The notes beneath the pieces were generated by a model. It had not been told where the DNA came from and did not search any database. It saw only the letters and a list, made by a program, of their open reading frames with translations. Shown piece after piece: positions 1 to 5,507 of a stretch of 5,507 nt of DNA. Position 1 is the stretch's first letter; each line of letters begins with the position of its first letter. The position numbers were made by a program, and so were the translations under genes. The stretch lies in NCBI GenBank assembly GCA_003647765.1, contig QMNM01000127.1:1-5507 (forward strand), in the 5' to 3' direction. Source of the DNA: Candidatus Cloacimonadota bacterium (GTDB taxonomy: Bacteria > Cloacimonadota > Cloacimonadia > JGIOTU-2 > B8-G9).

Positions 1-93
1 CCAAATTACTTTCCTGAAAATAGTCTAATCTTATTAAAAGGGTCTCATTCTATTCACTTAGAAAAAGTATTGGAAAGATTGGAAATGCTTTAA
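1..93 (+). CDS. murF: UDP-N-acetylmuramoyl-tripeptide--D-alanyl-D-alanine ligase (MurF), C-terminal end only
   Basis: Only the last 30 codons and the TAA stop are inside the window; the gene enters from the left edge in frame 1. MurF is the cytoplasmic ATP-dependent ligase that adds D-Ala-D-Ala to the UDP-MurNAc-tripeptide. The visible tail reads NSLILLKGSHSIHLEKVLER, which matches the end of the Mur ligase C-terminal domain in MurF proteins, where a LVKGSR-like strand and turn is followed by a helix containing LEKVV. The catalytic and ATP-binding parts lie outside the window, so the call rests on this short motif and on position: murF directly before mraY-murD-ftsW is the classical dcw order. 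A different Mur ligase is possible but unlikely. Confidence 0.85.
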   Translation, partial: PNYFPENSLILLKGSHSIHLEKVLERLEML

Positions 94-142
94 CTATTCA
101 GTAAAAATAAATATTCTAATTGATGTATCGGGATTAAATTCC

Positions 143-184
143 TCTCTGTGCCTCTGTGGTAAATATTTCGTAAACTTCGTGGCT
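143..184 (+). repeat. Interspersed repeat family 1, copy A
   Basis: A 42-bp element beginning tctctgtgcctctgtggta and ending cttcgtggct. It matches copy B (249-290) at 41 of 42 positions; the only difference is at position 172. A diverged third copy sits before murD (1587-1626). The element is built from short related words spaced 8-9 bp apart: ctctgtg at 144 and 152, and ttcgt at 167 and 176. It has no coding sense and lies in the murF-mraY spacer. Its mobility mechanism and function are unknown. Confidence 0.85.
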
Positions 185-203
185 ACATTTTCCAGCCACT
201 AAG
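175..203 (+). repeat. Imperfect inverted repeat at the end of copy A
   Basis: The end of copy A, cttcgtggct (175-184), is followed after a 9-nt loop by agccactaag (194-203). The two arms pair at 9 of 10 positions, with a mismatch at 178/200, so the transcript could form a small hairpin. No U-run follows, so it does not look like an intrinsic terminator. Confidence 0.6.
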
Positions 204-222
204 AACACTAAGTTACACTAAT
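197..222 (+). repeat. Short phased repeat of cactaag words
   Basis: The words cactaag, cactaag and cactaat start at 197, 206 and 216, a spacing of 9-10 bp. They resemble the reverse complement of the cttcgtg words in family 1, so this piece looks like a decayed, inverted part of the same family lying between copies A and B. Confidence 0.5.
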
Positions 223-248
223 GAATATTAAAAGAAAATTAAAAATAT

Positions 249-290
249 TCTCTGTGCCTCTGTGGTAAATATTTCGTGAACTTCGTGGCT
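249..290 (+). repeat. Interspersed repeat family 1, copy B
   Basis: Second 42-bp copy in the same orientation as copy A, offset by exactly 106 bp and with one substitution. It ends 24 nt before the mraY start codon, so it lies in the probable mraY leader. The flanks of A and B show no clear shared target-site duplication. Confidence 0.85.
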
Positions 291-300
291 TTAAAAATTC

Positions 301-304
301 AAGG
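301..304 (+). promoter_or_regulatory. Probable ribosome binding site of mraY
   Basis: AAGG lies 10 nt before the ATG at 315. It is a modest Shine-Dalgarno match, positioned just downstream of repeat copy B, and supports the chosen mraY start. Confidence 0.5.
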
Positions 305-314
305 TTATTAACTA

Positions 315-1415
315 ATGTTTTATCATTTATTATATCCTCTTAACAAATATATCTCGTTTTTTAGAGTATTTCAATATATCAGTTTTCGTGCAGCAGGAGC
401 TTTTGTTACAGCATTATTTATCGCTTTCATTTTTGGACCTAAAATAATTAAGTATTTAAAGAAGCATAATTATACAGAGTCCATTAGCGAATATATTCCG
501 GAGCATAATAGCAAAGCAGGAACTCCTTCTATGGGTGGTGTGATTATTATTATAGGATTATTCTTATCAGTTTTATTATGGAACGATTTACTAAACAGTT
601 ACATTCAAATACTTATATTAGCAATTTTATGGTTAGGTGGTTTAGGTTTTATAGATGATTATTTAAAGAATGTCAAAAATGCAAAACGCGGATTGATTGC
701 TAAATATAAGATATATGGACAGATTGTGTTAGGAATATTTGTAGCCGTAGTTGTATATTGTAGTTCTTCTGACAAAGCTGTAGCGACTTCAATTAGTATC
801 CCATTTTTCAAGAACCTTCATCCATCTTTGAGCTATTTCTTTTTTCCTTTTGTGATATTTGTAATTGTTGCGACTTCTAATGCAGTAAATTTAACTGATG
901 GATTAGATGGTTTATCTTCTGGATGCATTGCCTTTTCTGCTTTGGGCTTAGGCATAATGGCTTATTTAAAGGGAAATTTCAAAACAGCCAGTTATTTAAA
1001 CTTAGAATTTCTTCCGAATGTAGGTGAATTAACAATTTTTACAACAGCCATTATTGGAACGATTATGGGATTTTTATGGTTTAATACTAAACCAGCGGCA
1101 ATTTTTATGGGTGATACAGGTTCATTATCTTTGGGTGGTATTTTGGCTATTTTATCTGTTTTGCTAAAAGAGGAGATATTTTTTGCCATAGTTGGAGGGG
1201 TTTTTGTAATAGAAGCATTATCATCTCTTATACAAAGATATTATTTTAAATATACAAGGATAAAGACAGGACAAGGACAGCGAGTTTTTCTTCGCGCGCC
1301 TCTTCATCATCATTTTGAATTGAAAGGATGGCCAGAAGAAAAAATTGTTGTTAGATTTTGGATTATTGCGGCTTTATTGTTAGTAATTGGATTAAGCACG
1401 ATTAAGTTAAGATAA
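315..1415 (+). CDS. mraY: Phospho-N-acetylmuramoyl-pentapeptide-transferase (MraY)
   Basis: Integral membrane enzyme that transfers phospho-MurNAc-pentapeptide from its UDP carrier to undecaprenyl phosphate, giving lipid I. At 366 aa it is the usual family length (about 360) and matches from end to end. Visible family marks are FRAAGAFVTALF near residues 24-35, KAGTPSMGG at 67-75, the Asp-Asp pair in GFIDDY (114-115), NAVNLTDGLDG at 189-199, FLWFNT at 253-258, FMGDTGSL at 264-271 with the third active-site Asp at 267, the HHH motif at 331-333 in PLHHHFELKGWPE, and the C-terminal RFWII. About ten hydrophobic segments alternate with these cytoplasmic loops, as expected. The N-terminus MFYHLLYPLNKY aligns with the family start, which fixes the ATG. 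It follows murF after a 221-nt repeat-filled gap instead of the usual tight spacing. All catalytic residues are present, so it should be active. Confidence 0.98.
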   Translation: MFYHLLYPLNKYISFFRVFQYISFRAAGAFVTALFIAFIFGPKIIKYLKKHNYTESISEYIPEHNSKAGTPSMGGVIIIIGLFLSVLLWNDLLNSYIQILILAILWLGGLGFIDDYLKNVKNAKRGLIAKYKIYGQIVLGIFVAVVVYCSSSDKAVATSISIPFFKNLHPSLSYFFFPFVIFVIVATSNAVNLTDGLDGLSSGCIAFSALGLGIMAYLKGNFKTASYLNLEFLPNVGELTIFTTAIIGTIMGFLWFNTKPAAIFMGDTGSLSLGGILAILSVLLKEEIFFAIVGGVFVIEALSSLIQRYYFKYTRIKTGQGQRVFLRAPLHHHFELKGWPEEKIVVRFWIIAALLLVIGLSTIKLR

Positions 1416-1462
1416 ATCGGTTTGCCCAGTTAAATGATTGCTTATTATAAGAATTATAAGAA

Positions 1463-1554
1463 GACACCAAGATTATTTCTCTCTGATAGTTGTTAGTTGG
1501 TGGTTGATAGTTGTTAGTTGGTGTAGGGCGACATCAAGATTATTTCTCTCTCTG
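1463..1554 (+). repeat. Duplicated repeat module between mraY and murD
   Basis: A near-identical sequence of the form gacaYcaagattatttctct occurs at 1463-1485 and again at 1530-1554, 67 bp apart. Between them tgatagttgttagttggtg is repeated exactly at 1484-1502 and 1505-1523 (period 21). The second module runs into family-1-like tctctgtg sequence. The region has open reading frames in two frames, but their translations are low-complexity products of the repeats, so it is treated as non-coding. Confidence 0.75.
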
Positions 1555-1563
1555 TGTCCATAC

Positions 1564-1587
1564 AATCTTTATAATCTTTATAATCTT
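1564..1587 (+). repeat. 9-bp tandem repeat (aatctttat, about 2.7 units)
   Basis: The unit aatctttat occurs at 1564-1572 and 1573-1581, followed by a partial aatctt at 1582-1587, directly before repeat copy C. The 9-bp period matches the spacing of words inside the family 1 repeats, which suggests slippage or a common origin. Confidence 0.8.
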
Positions 1588-1626
1588 CTCTGTGTCTCTG
1601 TGGCAATATGGGATTTGTTTGTGGCT
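1587..1626 (+). repeat. Interspersed repeat family 1, diverged copy C
   Basis: A 40-bp sequence starting tctctgtgtctctgtggca and ending gtggct. Its first 19 bases match copy A at 17 positions and it has the same terminal gtggct, while the middle has diverged and is 2 bp shorter. It ends 4 nt before the murD ATG, in the same orientation and comparable leader position as copy B upstream of mraY. Confidence 0.7.
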
Positions 1627-1630
1627 AAAA

Positions 1631-3001
1631 ATGGAATTTAAAAATAGAAGTTTTGGTATATTAGGTGCAGCTCGTAGTGGTATAGCTGCTGCTAAAAAAT
1701 TATTACAATTAGAAGCGAATGTATTTCTAACTGATAAAAGGCCTATATCTGAATTATCTATTGATGACGACCTAATTAGCAAAATAGTATATAAATTTGG
1801 TGATAACAGTGATAAGTTGTTAGATTGTGATACAATCATTGTCAGTCCAGGGATTCCTTTAACAATCCCAATTTTGAAAAACGCATCTAAAAGAGGCATA
1901 AGGATTATTAGTGAAATAGAATTGGGTTATCAGATATGTAAAAAAACCAATCTGAAAATTATCGGTATAACTGGCTCCAACGGAAAAAGCACAACAGCAT
2001 CACTTATCTATCATATATTAGCAAGGCAATATAAAGATGTCATTTTAGCAGGAAATATAGGTAGTCCTTTTACTGCTTATCCTCTGGAAACCGGAAAAAT
2101 AAAGTTTGCTGTCCTAGAAATTAGTAGTTTTCAGCTGGACACAATTTGGCAATTTCATCCATATATAAGCATTATATTAAATATCACTCCTGACCATCTT
2201 AATCGGTATATGGATTTTGACCATTATAGAACATCAAAAAGCAGAATTTTTCTTAATCAAGATGAGAATGATTTTTGCATTTTGAATTACAAAGATGAAA
2301 ATTGCACATATATTGCCAAATATTGTAAAGCACAAAAAATATTTTTCAATAATGCCAATGGAATGGTTCATCAGGAACGGAGCAATATTGTAATTAAAAT
2401 GGACAATGAAAGGATAGTAATACCAAAGCGAAAAATAAAATTAAAAGGTCCGCATAACTTGGCAAATATTGAATCTGCTATTTATACATCTTTACTGCTA
2501 AATGTTGAAGTGGACAAAATTATTGAAGGGATTGTAAGTTTTTCAGGATTAGTGCATCGTTTGGAATATGTGGATGAGATTAATTCTATCAAGTTTATAA
2601 ATGATTCAAAAGCTACTAACACGGATGCTGTTAAATATGCCTTACAATCTTATGATAAACCGATTGTGTTAATTATGGGTGGTTCTGATAAAGGAGAAGA
2701 TTTTTCCATTCTGAAGCCATACATAAAAAATGTAATCTGTCTGATTTTATTAGGCGAGACAGCTGAAAAAATAAAAAATGATTTATCTAAAAAATCCTAC
2801 GGACAAACTAATATTCCTATTGTTTTTGTAAATGATATGAAAGAAGCTGTACAAAGGGCGTATAAAAATGCTGTTCCTGATAGTTATGTTCTTTTATCTC
2901 CTGCTTGTGCAAGCTATGACCAATTTGATAACTTTGAACAAAGAGGCGAAATATTCAAAAAGTATGTAAGAGAGTTGAAAAATAGCATAATAGCACACTG
3001 A
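1631..3001 (+). CDS. murD: UDP-N-acetylmuramoyl-L-alanine--D-glutamate ligase (MurD)
   Basis: Cytoplasmic Mur ligase that adds D-glutamate to UDP-MurNAc-L-Ala with ATP. From the ATG at 1631 the protein is 456 aa, a normal MurD length. The N-terminal Rossmann-like domain has GILGAARSG at about 9-17 and SPGIP near 72-76. The central ATPase domain has the P-loop GITGSNGKSTT from 112, EISSFQLD at 163-170, NITPDHLNRY at 184-193 and the probable carbamylated Lys203 in YRTSKSRIF. GPHNLAN is at 273-279. The C-terminal domain has HR at 309-310, NDSKATNTD from 324, LLSPACASYDQF at 421-432 and NFEQRGEIF at 434-442. The frame stays open back to an ATG at 1511, but those 40 extra residues are translated repeat; the ATG at 1631 puts the usual eight or so residues before the first strand. 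No good Shine-Dalgarno precedes it; TTG at 1619, behind a GGGA, is an alternative. The last codons and stop lie inside a repeat. Confidence 0.97.
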   Translation: MEFKNRSFGILGAARSGIAAAKKLLQLEANVFLTDKRPISELSIDDDLISKIVYKFGDNSDKLLDCDTIIVSPGIPLTIPILKNASKRGIRIISEIELGYQICKKTNLKIIGITGSNGKSTTASLIYHILARQYKDVILAGNIGSPFTAYPLETGKIKFAVLEISSFQLDTIWQFHPYISIILNITPDHLNRYMDFDHYRTSKSRIFLNQDENDFCILNYKDENCTYIAKYCKAQKIFFNNANGMVHQERSNIVIKMDNERIVIPKRKIKLKGPHNLANIESAIYTSLLLNVEVDKIIEGIVSFSGLVHRLEYVDEINSIKFINDSKATNTDAVKYALQSYDKPIVLIMGGSDKGEDFSILKPYIKNVICLILLGETAEKIKNDLSKKSYGQTNIPIVFVNDMKEAVQRAYKNAVPDSYVLLSPACASYDQFDNFEQRGEIFKKYVRELKNSIIAH

Positions 3002-3016
3002 AAAACATTGAGTAAA
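2989..3016 (+). repeat. Repeat family 2, direct copy 1 (overlaps murD stop)
   Basis: A 28-bp sequence starting aatagcacactgaaaaac that recurs at 3188-3215 with 26 of 28 positions identical. Its TGA is the murD stop codon and its first bases encode the last residues of MurD. Confidence 0.8.
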
Positions 3017-3172
3017 GCCGCTGAATAACGCTGATTAAAAAGTTAGAAATAACTAATTACAAATATCTAATTTCTAATAAAATTTCAAAATCCAAATTTC
3101 TAATGATAAATGACATAAGACAAATAATAAAAATTTGTCAGTGTTGTTCTGCATATTCAGTGTTTTTCTGCG
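2995..3172 (+). repeat. Imperfect long inverted repeat between murD and ftsW
   Basis: The left arm, about 2995-3034, is made of roughly 10-bp words such as cgctgaataa and cgctgattaa. The right arm, about 3137-3172, contains cagtgtttttctgcgtc and reads as the diverged reverse complement of the left arm: aaaaacattgagta pairs with the complement of aaaaacactgaata, and the next word also matches at most positions. The arms enclose about 100 nt of A/T-rich sequence. A transcript could fold into a long, bulged hairpin. It has no coding content and does not resemble a simple terminator. Confidence 0.6.
3038..3130 (+). repeat. A/T-rich core with short repeated words
   Basis: The sequence between the two inverted arms is very A/T-rich and made of variants of one word. 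The decamer aatttctaat occurs exactly at 3069-3078 and 3095-3104, with related words such as taataaaatttc and taatgataaatgac around it. No gene, RNA or promoter is recognisable. Confidence 0.55.
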
Positions 3173-3187
3173 TCGAATTAGGGAAAA

Positions 3188-3215
3188 AATAGCACACTGA
3201 AAAACGCTGAGTAAA
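3188..3215 (+). repeat. Repeat family 2, direct copy 2
   Basis: Direct repeat of 2989-3016 with two substitutions (aaaaacgctgag against aaaaacattgag). It lies 48 nt before the ftsW start codon, so it should be in the ftsW leader. Confidence 0.8.
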
Positions 3216-3246
3216 AATCAGGAAAATATATTCTTTATCTATATCT

Positions 3247-3252
3247 TGGAGG
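3247..3252 (+). promoter_or_regulatory. Strong ribosome binding site of ftsW
   Basis: TGGAGG, continuing as TGGAGGAT, ends 11 nt before the ATG at 3264. It is a near-ideal Shine-Dalgarno sequence and fixes the ftsW start. It contrasts with murD, which has no comparable site. Confidence 0.8.
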
Positions 3253-3263
3253 ATTTGTAAATA

Positions 3264-4442
3264 ATGAAACTAAGTATTGCTGAAATAGACAAGAAAATAT
3301 TATTTATATACATAACATTATCAATTTTTGGTGTCTTAATGATTTTAGACATTGTTAGTGTTAGACATTCTTATGAAAGGTTCATAAGGCAGTTAATATG
3401 GGTAGGTCTCACAATCCCTATATTTCTAATTGTATATAATATCCCTTTATATATTATAAGGAAACTTGCATTTCCGCTTGTAATGATTAGTATTATATTG
3501 TTAATAGGGACTTTAATTCCTGGTATAGGTGTTGAAGTTAATGGTGTGATGCGTCGCATACAGATAGGAAGTTTTGGGTTTCAGCCCAGCATTTTAGCAC
3601 GACTTGCACTTATTATTTATATAGCTCATATATTAGATAAAAATCAGGAATTTATTGAAGATGCAGGAATAAAAAATTTTTTGATGAATTTCCGTCCATT
3701 GTGGACTATTCCTCTTATTATATTTATTCTTATTTATTTTGGTAGGGACTTTAGCACAGCTGCTATTACTTTTATTCTTGTATTAACTATATTTTTTCTT
3801 GCTAGAATTCGTCTCTCAATCATCTTATCAATCATTCTTATTGCTTTGATACTAGTATTTGTTATTATACAAATGGGTCCTAAGTACCGTAAAGCACGAA
3901 TAATTACTTATGTAAATTTTATATTAAATAAAGAGATTCCTAAGGAAAAACAGGAGTATATTTACCAACCAAAACAATCATTAATTGCTATTTCTAATGG
4001 CAGGATTCTAGGAGTTGGCTCAAAAAGAGGAAGAGCAAAATTGTTCTATTTGCCATTTCCAGAGACAGATTATATTTTCTCCGTAATTGTAGAAGAATGG
4101 GGCTTTATTATGTCGTTATTAATCCTATCGGCATATAGTTACATTTTCTATAGAGGGATGCGTATAGCTGTTAATACTAATTCTTTGTTCACATCTTTAT
4201 TGATTGCTGGTTGCAGTTTAAATATTATAATCAATGTGATAATAAATGTAGCAGTGGCTATTGTTCTTATTCCATCTACTGGTGTAACATTGCCTTTTAT
4301 CAGTTATGGTGGGAGTTCTTTTATGATAAATAGCTTATGTATTGCGATTATTTTAAATGCTAATAGAAGTTCTATTTCATTAAACGGCAAAAAATGGCAA
4401 CGACAAAGGAACAAACTCTATCGTGAGCTTGGCACAAGCTAA
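3264..4442 (+). CDS. ftsW: SEDS-family septal peptidoglycan glycosyltransferase (FtsW)
   Basis: Multi-pass inner-membrane protein that polymerises lipid II into glycan strands at the division site together with a class B penicillin-binding protein. Its 392 aa is normal for FtsW. Family marks include NGVMRRIQIG and FGFQPS (about 93-109), QSLIAISNGRILGVG (238-252), YLPFPETDYIFSVIVEE (262-278), whose Asp269 matches the essential Asp of the large extracellular loop, and PSTGVTLPFISYGGSS (337-352). About ten hydrophobic segments are visible. FtsW is preferred over its paralogue RodA because of its place after mraY-murD. Several usually conserved positions differ: QPSE-F-AK is QPSILAR (Ile at 110), the EPD-GTA-like motif is GRDFSTA (160-166), and the segment before PSTG has Val where Gly is common. 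The reading frame is intact and the ribosome binding site strong, so it is probably functional though diverged. Confidence 0.93.
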   Translation: MKLSIAEIDKKILFIYITLSIFGVLMILDIVSVRHSYERFIRQLIWVGLTIPIFLIVYNIPLYIIRKLAFPLVMISIILLIGTLIPGIGVEVNGVMRRIQIGSFGFQPSILARLALIIYIAHILDKNQEFIEDAGIKNFLMNFRPLWTIPLIIFILIYFGRDFSTAAITFILVLTIFFLARIRLSIILSIILIALILVFVIIQMGPKYRKARIITYVNFILNKEIPKEKQEYIYQPKQSLIAISNGRILGVGSKRGRAKLFYLPFPETDYIFSVIVEEWGFIMSLLILSAYSYIFYRGMRIAVNTNSLFTSLLIAGCSLNIIINVIINVAVAIVLIPSTGVTLPFISYGGSSFMINSLCIAIILNANRSSISLNGKKWQRQRNKLYRELGTS

Positions 4443-4482
4443 GGATAAAATAATATTCAGTTAATGTCTGAACTTTAAAATT

Positions 4483-4489
4483 AGAGGAA
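4483..4489 (+). promoter_or_regulatory. Ribosome binding site of the endonuclease gene
   Basis: AGAGGAA is followed by 8 nt and then the ATG at 4498. The good match and spacing support this start and show that the gene has its own translation signal. Confidence 0.75.
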
Positions 4490-4497
4490 TTTTATTT

Positions 4498-5178
4498 ATG
4501 AACAAAAATCTAAAAAAAGACTTTCTAATAGCCCTAAAAAAATCCTTTTGGGCATATAATAAATATGGGGCAAGAAGTAATAAAAAATTAATTCCAATTC
4601 ATTCTTGGTTTGCAAAAGAGATAATTTCAGGACTTGGAAGTGGTTATTCTGTTAGGAGTTTAGGTTGTGATGGTGAATATAAAATGGAAGGAAAATATTA
4701 CGAAAAAACATTAGATATTACAATCTTTTATACTCAAAAGCCAATAGTAACATTAAGTTTTAAATTCGTGACTTCAAATTATGCTCAAAATTCAAATAAT
4801 TATTTTGAAAATCTGCTTGGAGAAACTGCAAATATAAGGAGAATTGGAGTTGGGTTTGTTCACTTTCTTATATTAAGAGGGCATACTCCGTATTATGATA
4901 AAGCCGCTGGTAATAAACGAGGAAAATTAAAAAAAATAGAAATTCTATCTGAACATCATATAAAAAAGTATGTGAAGCTTTTTAAAGATTTGGATTTTCC
5001 ACATAAACCCGATGTATTAGGTATGGCAATAATTGATTTTGATAAGAGAGGTAATCCTATATTTACTGATTTAGAAGACTTGGGATTAGAAGAGGAAACA
5101 ATAAAAATATTGGAAAATGATTTCTCAATTAAAACTTTTATAAGAAAGGTAAGAGCATTATGCGATCTAAAAAGCTAG
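4498..5178 (+). CDS. Putative type II restriction endonuclease (PD-(D/E)XK-like)
   Basis: A 226-aa soluble protein with no signal peptide or membrane segment. I do not recognise a named enzyme or a recognition site. The central part looks like a restriction endonuclease core: KYYEKTLDITIFY (67-78) gives a strand with Asp73, then IVTLSFKFV (83-91) a second strand with Lys89, followed by SNYAQNSNNYFENLLGET (93-110), a pattern I associate with type II restriction enzymes. If Asp73 and Lys89 are catalytic, the site would be D-X15-K, with Ser87 in the place usually held by Glu or Asp; Glu60 or Glu104 might supply the missing acid. The strongest support is context: the next gene overlaps it by 19 nt and encodes an adenine methyltransferase, the expected protective partner. 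The gene starts 55 nt after ftsW on the same strand, so it may be read through from the cell-wall operon. A non-restriction nuclease role is possible. Confidence 0.72.
   Translation: MNKNLKKDFLIALKKSFWAYNKYGARSNKKLIPIHSWFAKEIISGLGSGYSVRSLGCDGEYKMEGKYYEKTLDITIFYTQKPIVTLSFKFVTSNYAQNSNNYFENLLGETANIRRIGVGFVHFLILRGHTPYYDKAAGNKRGKLKKIEILSEHHIKKYVKLFKDLDFPHKPDVLGMAIIDFDKRGNPIFTDLEDLGLEEETIKILENDFSIKTFIRKVRALCDLKS
5145..5149 (+). promoter_or_regulatory. Ribosome binding site of the methyltransferase, inside the endonuclease gene
   Basis: AAAGG lies 10 nt before the ATG at 5160, within the 3' end of the endonuclease gene. The in-frame ATG at 5196 has no such site, so 5160 is preferred and the two genes are probably translationally coupled. 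Confidence 0.6.
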
Positions 5179-5507
5179 ATACCTTGCCCTTATATATGAA
5201 AGTAACAAAAAAAAAGATAAATGGAGTTGTATATACCCCTAAATGGATAGTTGATTTGATATTAGATAGGGTTGAGTATAAAAGAAATATTTACAAAAGA
5301 AAGATTATTGACCCTTCATGTGGAAAAGGCAATTTTTTAATAACTATTGTAAAAAGGTTTTTGAAAGATTGTAAAGATAATGATTTAGGTTCCGATAAAA
5401 TAAAAAAGTTGTTGAATAAGAATATATTTGGTTTTGATATTGATGAAACTTCTATTGCTGAATGCAAAAAAAGTCTGGATAATATCGTCAAACCTTATGG
5501 AATAGAC
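5160..5507 (+). CDS. N6-adenine DNA methyltransferase of a restriction-modification system, N-terminal part
   Basis: The first 116 codons are inside the window; the gene continues past the right edge. It should transfer a methyl group from S-adenosylmethionine to adenine in the target of the neighbouring endonuclease, protecting host DNA. Visible marks are GVVYTPKWIVDLIL (22-35), the segment before motif I that is typical of TaqI/Eco57I-like enzymes, motif I IIDPSCGKGNFL (49-60), which forms the SAM-binding loop, and NIFGFDID (88-95), the acidic strand end that binds the SAM ribose. The catalytic NPPY motif would lie downstream and cannot be seen. The start at 5160 overlaps the endonuclease gene by 19 nt in another frame; the later ATG at 5196 would remove 12 lysine-rich residues. 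A fused enzyme with further domains beyond the edge is possible. Confidence 0.88.
   Translation, partial: MRSKKLDTLPLYMKVTKKKINGVVYTPKWIVDLILDRVEYKRNIYKRKIIDPSCGKGNFLITIVKRFLKDCKDNDLGSDKIKKLLNKNIFGFDIDETSIAECKKSLDNIVKPYGID

Follow-up and report, generated by a model that had tools for sequence, protein, structure and literature searches.

A horizontally acquired type II restriction-modification (R-M) cassette, with its endonuclease gene (R) ahead of its methyltransferase gene (M), probably lies right behind ftsW in the dcw cluster of an uncultured bacterium, where it parts ftsW from murG. The window, meaning the whole 5507-bp stretch of DNA analysed, is one entire contig (G000:C153) from a bin of 1.97 Mb in 360 contigs, 88.8% complete and 1.4% contaminated. 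It keeps the canonical order murF-mraY-murD-ftsW-murG-murC as far as ftsW and then carries R-M genes instead. The cassette is of an ordinary kind; its address is unusual and surprising.

Gene content of the window

All genes of the window lie on the plus strand, and the ORF map agrees with the preliminary description in gene order, strand, and the gap of 55 nt between ftsW and R. The run murF-mraY-murD-ftsW is present in the order described there, with murF reduced to its 3' end, the last ~30 codons (1..93). The mraY gene (315..1415) matches PF00953 at 3e-33 as well as MraY_sig1, murD (1631..3001) encodes the Pfam Mur ligase domains, and ftsW (3264..4442) matches PF01098 at 2.2e-71 and TIGR02614 at 3e-80, the latter score falling under the model's cut-off. 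In alignment, FtsW extends some 10 residues further at its C-terminus than its counterparts in relatives. The start of murD is placed at about 1631; the ORF call from a TTG at 1511 was rejected, as it runs too far into the spacer. Beyond the spacer at 4443..4497 come R (4498..5178), for a putative type II restriction endonuclease of 226 aa, and M (5160..5507), for the N-terminal 116 aa of an N6-adenine DNA methyltransferase of Eco57I/TaqI-like type. The reading frames of R and M overlap by 19 nt (5160..5178), and the same overlap occurs in two related cassettes, L032 and L034. M is truncated, since the window stops where its contig does.

The predicted endonuclease and its methyltransferase partner

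Profile searches with the R protein gave no match in Pfam, NCBIfam or PADLOC, and neither single nor profile queries found a real match by sequence in PDB. Among 84,980 species genomes scanned, 165 relatives of R were found; in 73 of the best 80 of these 165, the set analysed, R is adjoined by a methyltransferase (MTase) of the same family, in either gene order. Across 48 aligned R sequences, 27 columns are invariant, including E60, D73, K89, N100, N101, E104 and E109. The AlphaFold2 model of R (pLDDT 94.8, pTM 0.91) was matched to NucC (Foldseek E 1e-4; VIA Z 10.4, rmsd 3.4, 163 residues aligned), to NgoMIV (VIA Z 9.7, rmsd 4.0, 171 aligned), and to the further type II enzymes BbvCI, BsaWI, Kpn2I and AgeI. 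The predicted fold is clearly like that of the PD-(D/E)XK superfamily, with conserved acidic residues and a lysine, and E60, D73, K89 and E104 are its putative catalytic residues. R points to an endonuclease family that spans bacteria and archaea and stands outside all profile libraries used.

The portion of M within the window matches N6_Mtase (PF02384) at 1e-8, contains the stretch DPSCGKGNF, a candidate for the SAM-binding motif I, and is hit by many type II MTase models. Compared with the MTase of L034, a close relative of 528 aa and full length, it shows 56% identity over residues 1-115 of that protein. The L034 protein matches PF07669 (Eco57I) at 4e-29, PF02384 at 2e-23 and PADLOC MTase_II at 3e-126; its match to TaqI_C is weak. 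The position of the catalytic motif IV (NPPY) in M falls beyond the contig end; L034 reads GNPPYVR there. A search of the bin for the rest of M returned weak paralogue-like matches only.

On the strength of the PD-(D/E)XK-like predicted structure and the adjoining MTase in 73 of 80 relatives, R and M very probably constitute a type II R-M cassette. An endonuclease followed by an adenine methyltransferase is what the preliminary description had proposed behind ftsW, and the fold of R, the MTase profiles and the pairing of the two families bear it out. The R enzyme would cleave DNA that lacks the modification, at a short recognition site, and M would shield that same site in the host, so far as cleavage, methylation and site specificity can be predicted for such a pair. 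The 19-nt overlap suggests that their translation may be coupled. In a separate locus, L033, an ORF of 215 aa without any Pfam match (6477-7124) lies between R and M and holds a 19-nt overlap with R.

Proteins 57-76% identical to R come from metagenome-assembled genomes labelled Poribacteria, Elusimicrobia, Omnitrophota, Patescibacteria and Altiarchaea, and R was not found in the plasmid or phage records searched. Among more distant relatives (L151-L154), three near-identical viral contigs encode a protein 45% identical to R, with no copy of this MTase in the 10.5 kb covered, and L154 has an R relative (35%) with the MTase on the opposite strand.

The ftsW-murG junction across the phylum

Our phylum set comprises 124 genomes, of which 57 have both FtsW and MurG among the matches listed. 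In all 57, ftsW and murG are adjacent on one strand. ORFs of the sizes expected for murG-murC-murB-ftsQ-ftsA-ftsZ follow ftsW in 18 relatives, up to the limits of their contigs, and in one of these regions (L118) Pfam matches bear out the identities of murG, murC and ftsA. The placement of murG behind ftsW, taken as usual for most bacteria when the window was first described, is the rule in this phylum as well. The pair is very stable, and the genes behind ftsW come in one and the same order in all sampled phylum genomes. Similarly, in Neisseriaceae, the ftsW-murG sub-cluster stays together even where the dcw cluster is fragmented (PMC9395523).

Comparison of the same junction finds no cassette in the relatives, and a search of the full set of 124 genomes found R in none of the 123 others. 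Because ftsW-murG adjacency is the rule and R occurs in no other genome of the phylum, the cassette appears, from these genome comparisons, to have come into the dcw cluster from outside and not to be ancestral there at the level of order or class. In a comparison with L032, the nearest cassette (78%), the DNA becomes similar from about 5 nt upstream of the start codon of R. No tRNA or other RNA that might have served as an insertion target was found at the site.

A long-standing presence of the cassette at this place throughout the family of this bacterium, as an ancestral arrangement at that level, is an unlikely reading. The host-like codon usage would suit it, and the comparison genomes all belong to other families, so that none contradicts it, but none of the other families searched in the phylum has R.

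Enlarged spacers and the missing right-hand side

Spacers within this part of the dcw cluster are enlarged. The gaps murF-mraY (94..314), mraY-murD (1416..1630) and murD-ftsW (3002..3263) measure 221, 215 and 262 nt, versus medians of -1, 1 and -4 nt in 16 relatives. The first contains a dispersed repeat twice (143-184 and 249-290), and the segment 120-314 is matched at 47 places in the bin, itself included, several of them at contig ends, where such repeats may be a cause of the fragmentation. Since the spacers are enlarged and partly filled with repeats, the R-M insertion sits in a lineage that has undergone other invasions of its spacers too. A cassette between ftsW and murG would mean that even the dcw cluster takes in self-protecting genes where operon spacing has relaxed.

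The preliminary description spoke of an insertion into the cluster or at a broken end of it. Of this picture, a foreign cassette following ftsW is supported; the right-hand junction lies beyond the contig, which stops within M, and the bin contains neither murG nor murC nor the remainder of M. Of the genes expected farther right, ftsQ, ftsA and ftsZ were recovered, together with murB, on a separate contig (C39) as murB-ftsQ-ftsA-ftsZ. No murG or murC orthologue was found anywhere in the 88.8% complete bin by models or by a relative's proteins, with positive controls for the model search. On C39, the stretch of about 190 nt ahead of murB (1-190) is non-coding and contains a 38-nt repeat twice and no tail of murC; part of it is also matched at about 20 other short stretches of the bin.

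These observations bear on a second explanation, in which the dcw cluster was broken by rearrangement, so that ftsW ends a block joined to an R-M locus, murG and murC lie elsewhere, and nothing was inserted. This is possible but doubtful. The repeat-bearing, murC-free start of C39 would fit a break, as would the enlarged spacers of the lineage; yet the cluster is whole in all relatives examined, and murG and murC are on no other contig of the bin, as expected if they share one unbinned contig with the remainder of M. The simplest picture is such a contig, carrying the end of M followed by murG and murC, and under the preferred reading of an insertion behind ftsW these two genes would come after M.

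Integrity of the contig

A third explanation is that the contig is chimeric, with an R-M fragment from another organism of the same metagenome joined to the 3' end of ftsW. Several features might raise suspicion: M is cut off at the end of a short contig, the bin is in 360 pieces, and adjacency of ftsW and murG is otherwise universal in the sample. In addition, the bin has two copies of the murF 3' end, at window positions 1-100 and at 189-288 of contig C313, 99% identical over 100 nt with differing continuations. This suggests co-existing strains or a partial duplication, so a strain mixture may be present. The spacer of C313 contains a 141-nt repeat that recurs at 2296-2436 of contig C33.

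We nevertheless consider a chimera rather improbable. No repeat from 4380-4497 or from the R-M region occurs elsewhere in the bin to seed a misjoin, and 4380-5507 has no second substantial copy there. Codon usage in both R and M suits the genes of the host; for R the fit is -0.86 per codon, at least as good as for genes of the host itself and for R relatives elsewhere. GC content is close, 0.27-0.28 vs 0.30-0.31. Related cassettes, moreover, lie behind housekeeping genes in independent assemblies.

Expression and placement of R-first cassettes

The spacer between ftsW and R has a ribosome-binding-like AGAGGA on the plus strand and no plus-strand terminator, and promoter-like sites in it are not above chance. 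As no terminator follows ftsW, the acquired cassette would probably owe at least some of its transcription to read-through from the dcw genes, which the spacer permits and which is plausible; the constitutive cell-wall transcription suggested in the preliminary description would go beyond this. The earlier suggestion that the cassette would be hard to lose draws on the post-segregational killing described for type II R-M systems in general (reviewed in PMC3874152).

Placement behind housekeeping genes recurs in the R-first branch, whose endonucleases are 57-76% identical to the R of the window. Examples stand 18 nt behind an intein-bearing gyrB (L035), 136 nt behind an rpsA-like gene for an S1-domain protein (L036), 156 nt behind CTP synthase (L037), 36 nt (L038) and, depending on the start codon, ~90-130 nt (L039) behind aspartate/ornithine carbamoyltransferase genes, and 37 nt behind a H+-pyrophosphatase (L041). 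If this branch tended to settle on the same strand behind such genes and borrow their transcripts, placement in essential operons would be a habit of an R-M lineage, not an accident. We regard such a tendency as very unlikely. A same-strand upstream gene within 100 nt is found for 9 of 14 R-first cassettes versus 40 of 76 in the background (p 0.56), and hitch-hiking was rejected on these counts as a general rule of the branch. In L036, a terminator-like hairpin and a TATAAT lie between the S1 gene and R. Because proximity is not above background and L036 has these signals ahead of R, hitch-hiking by R-first cassettes is speculation; and because about ten sites were inspected, after the fact, the pattern is a lead and not a result. 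M-first cassettes are significantly less often close behind a same-strand gene (16 of 57 vs 217 of 422, p 0.001), and this majority is placed more like independent units.

Comparison with known systems

R-M systems located between core genes or within operons are known (Furuta et al. 2010 as cited in PMC3031569; PMC4176335). Such insertions resemble the one proposed here in that a small R-M unit sits between conserved chromosomal genes; the site in the window differs in parting ftsW from murG. The literature searched, in which Furuta et al. 2010 is represented through citation, yielded no report of an R-M system at the ftsW-murG site.

Set beside other type II systems that pair a PD-(D/E)XK endonuclease with a TaqI/Eco57I-like MTase, the cassette is alike in its two adjacent genes, its endonuclease fold and its N6-adenine MTase domains, and, through the full-length relative, in a weak match to a TaqI-like C-terminal specificity domain. 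It differs in that its R is without a match in Pfam, NCBIfam, PADLOC or PDB sequences. It also places R before M, with the 19-nt overlap, whereas most of its relatives place M first. The best single fold match to R is NucC, an effector nuclease activated by cyclic nucleotides (Foldseek E 1e-4, VIA Z 10.4), but identity to NucC is only about 12%, the type II enzyme NgoMIV is about as close (Z 9.7), and the partner of R is an MTase, not a cyclase.
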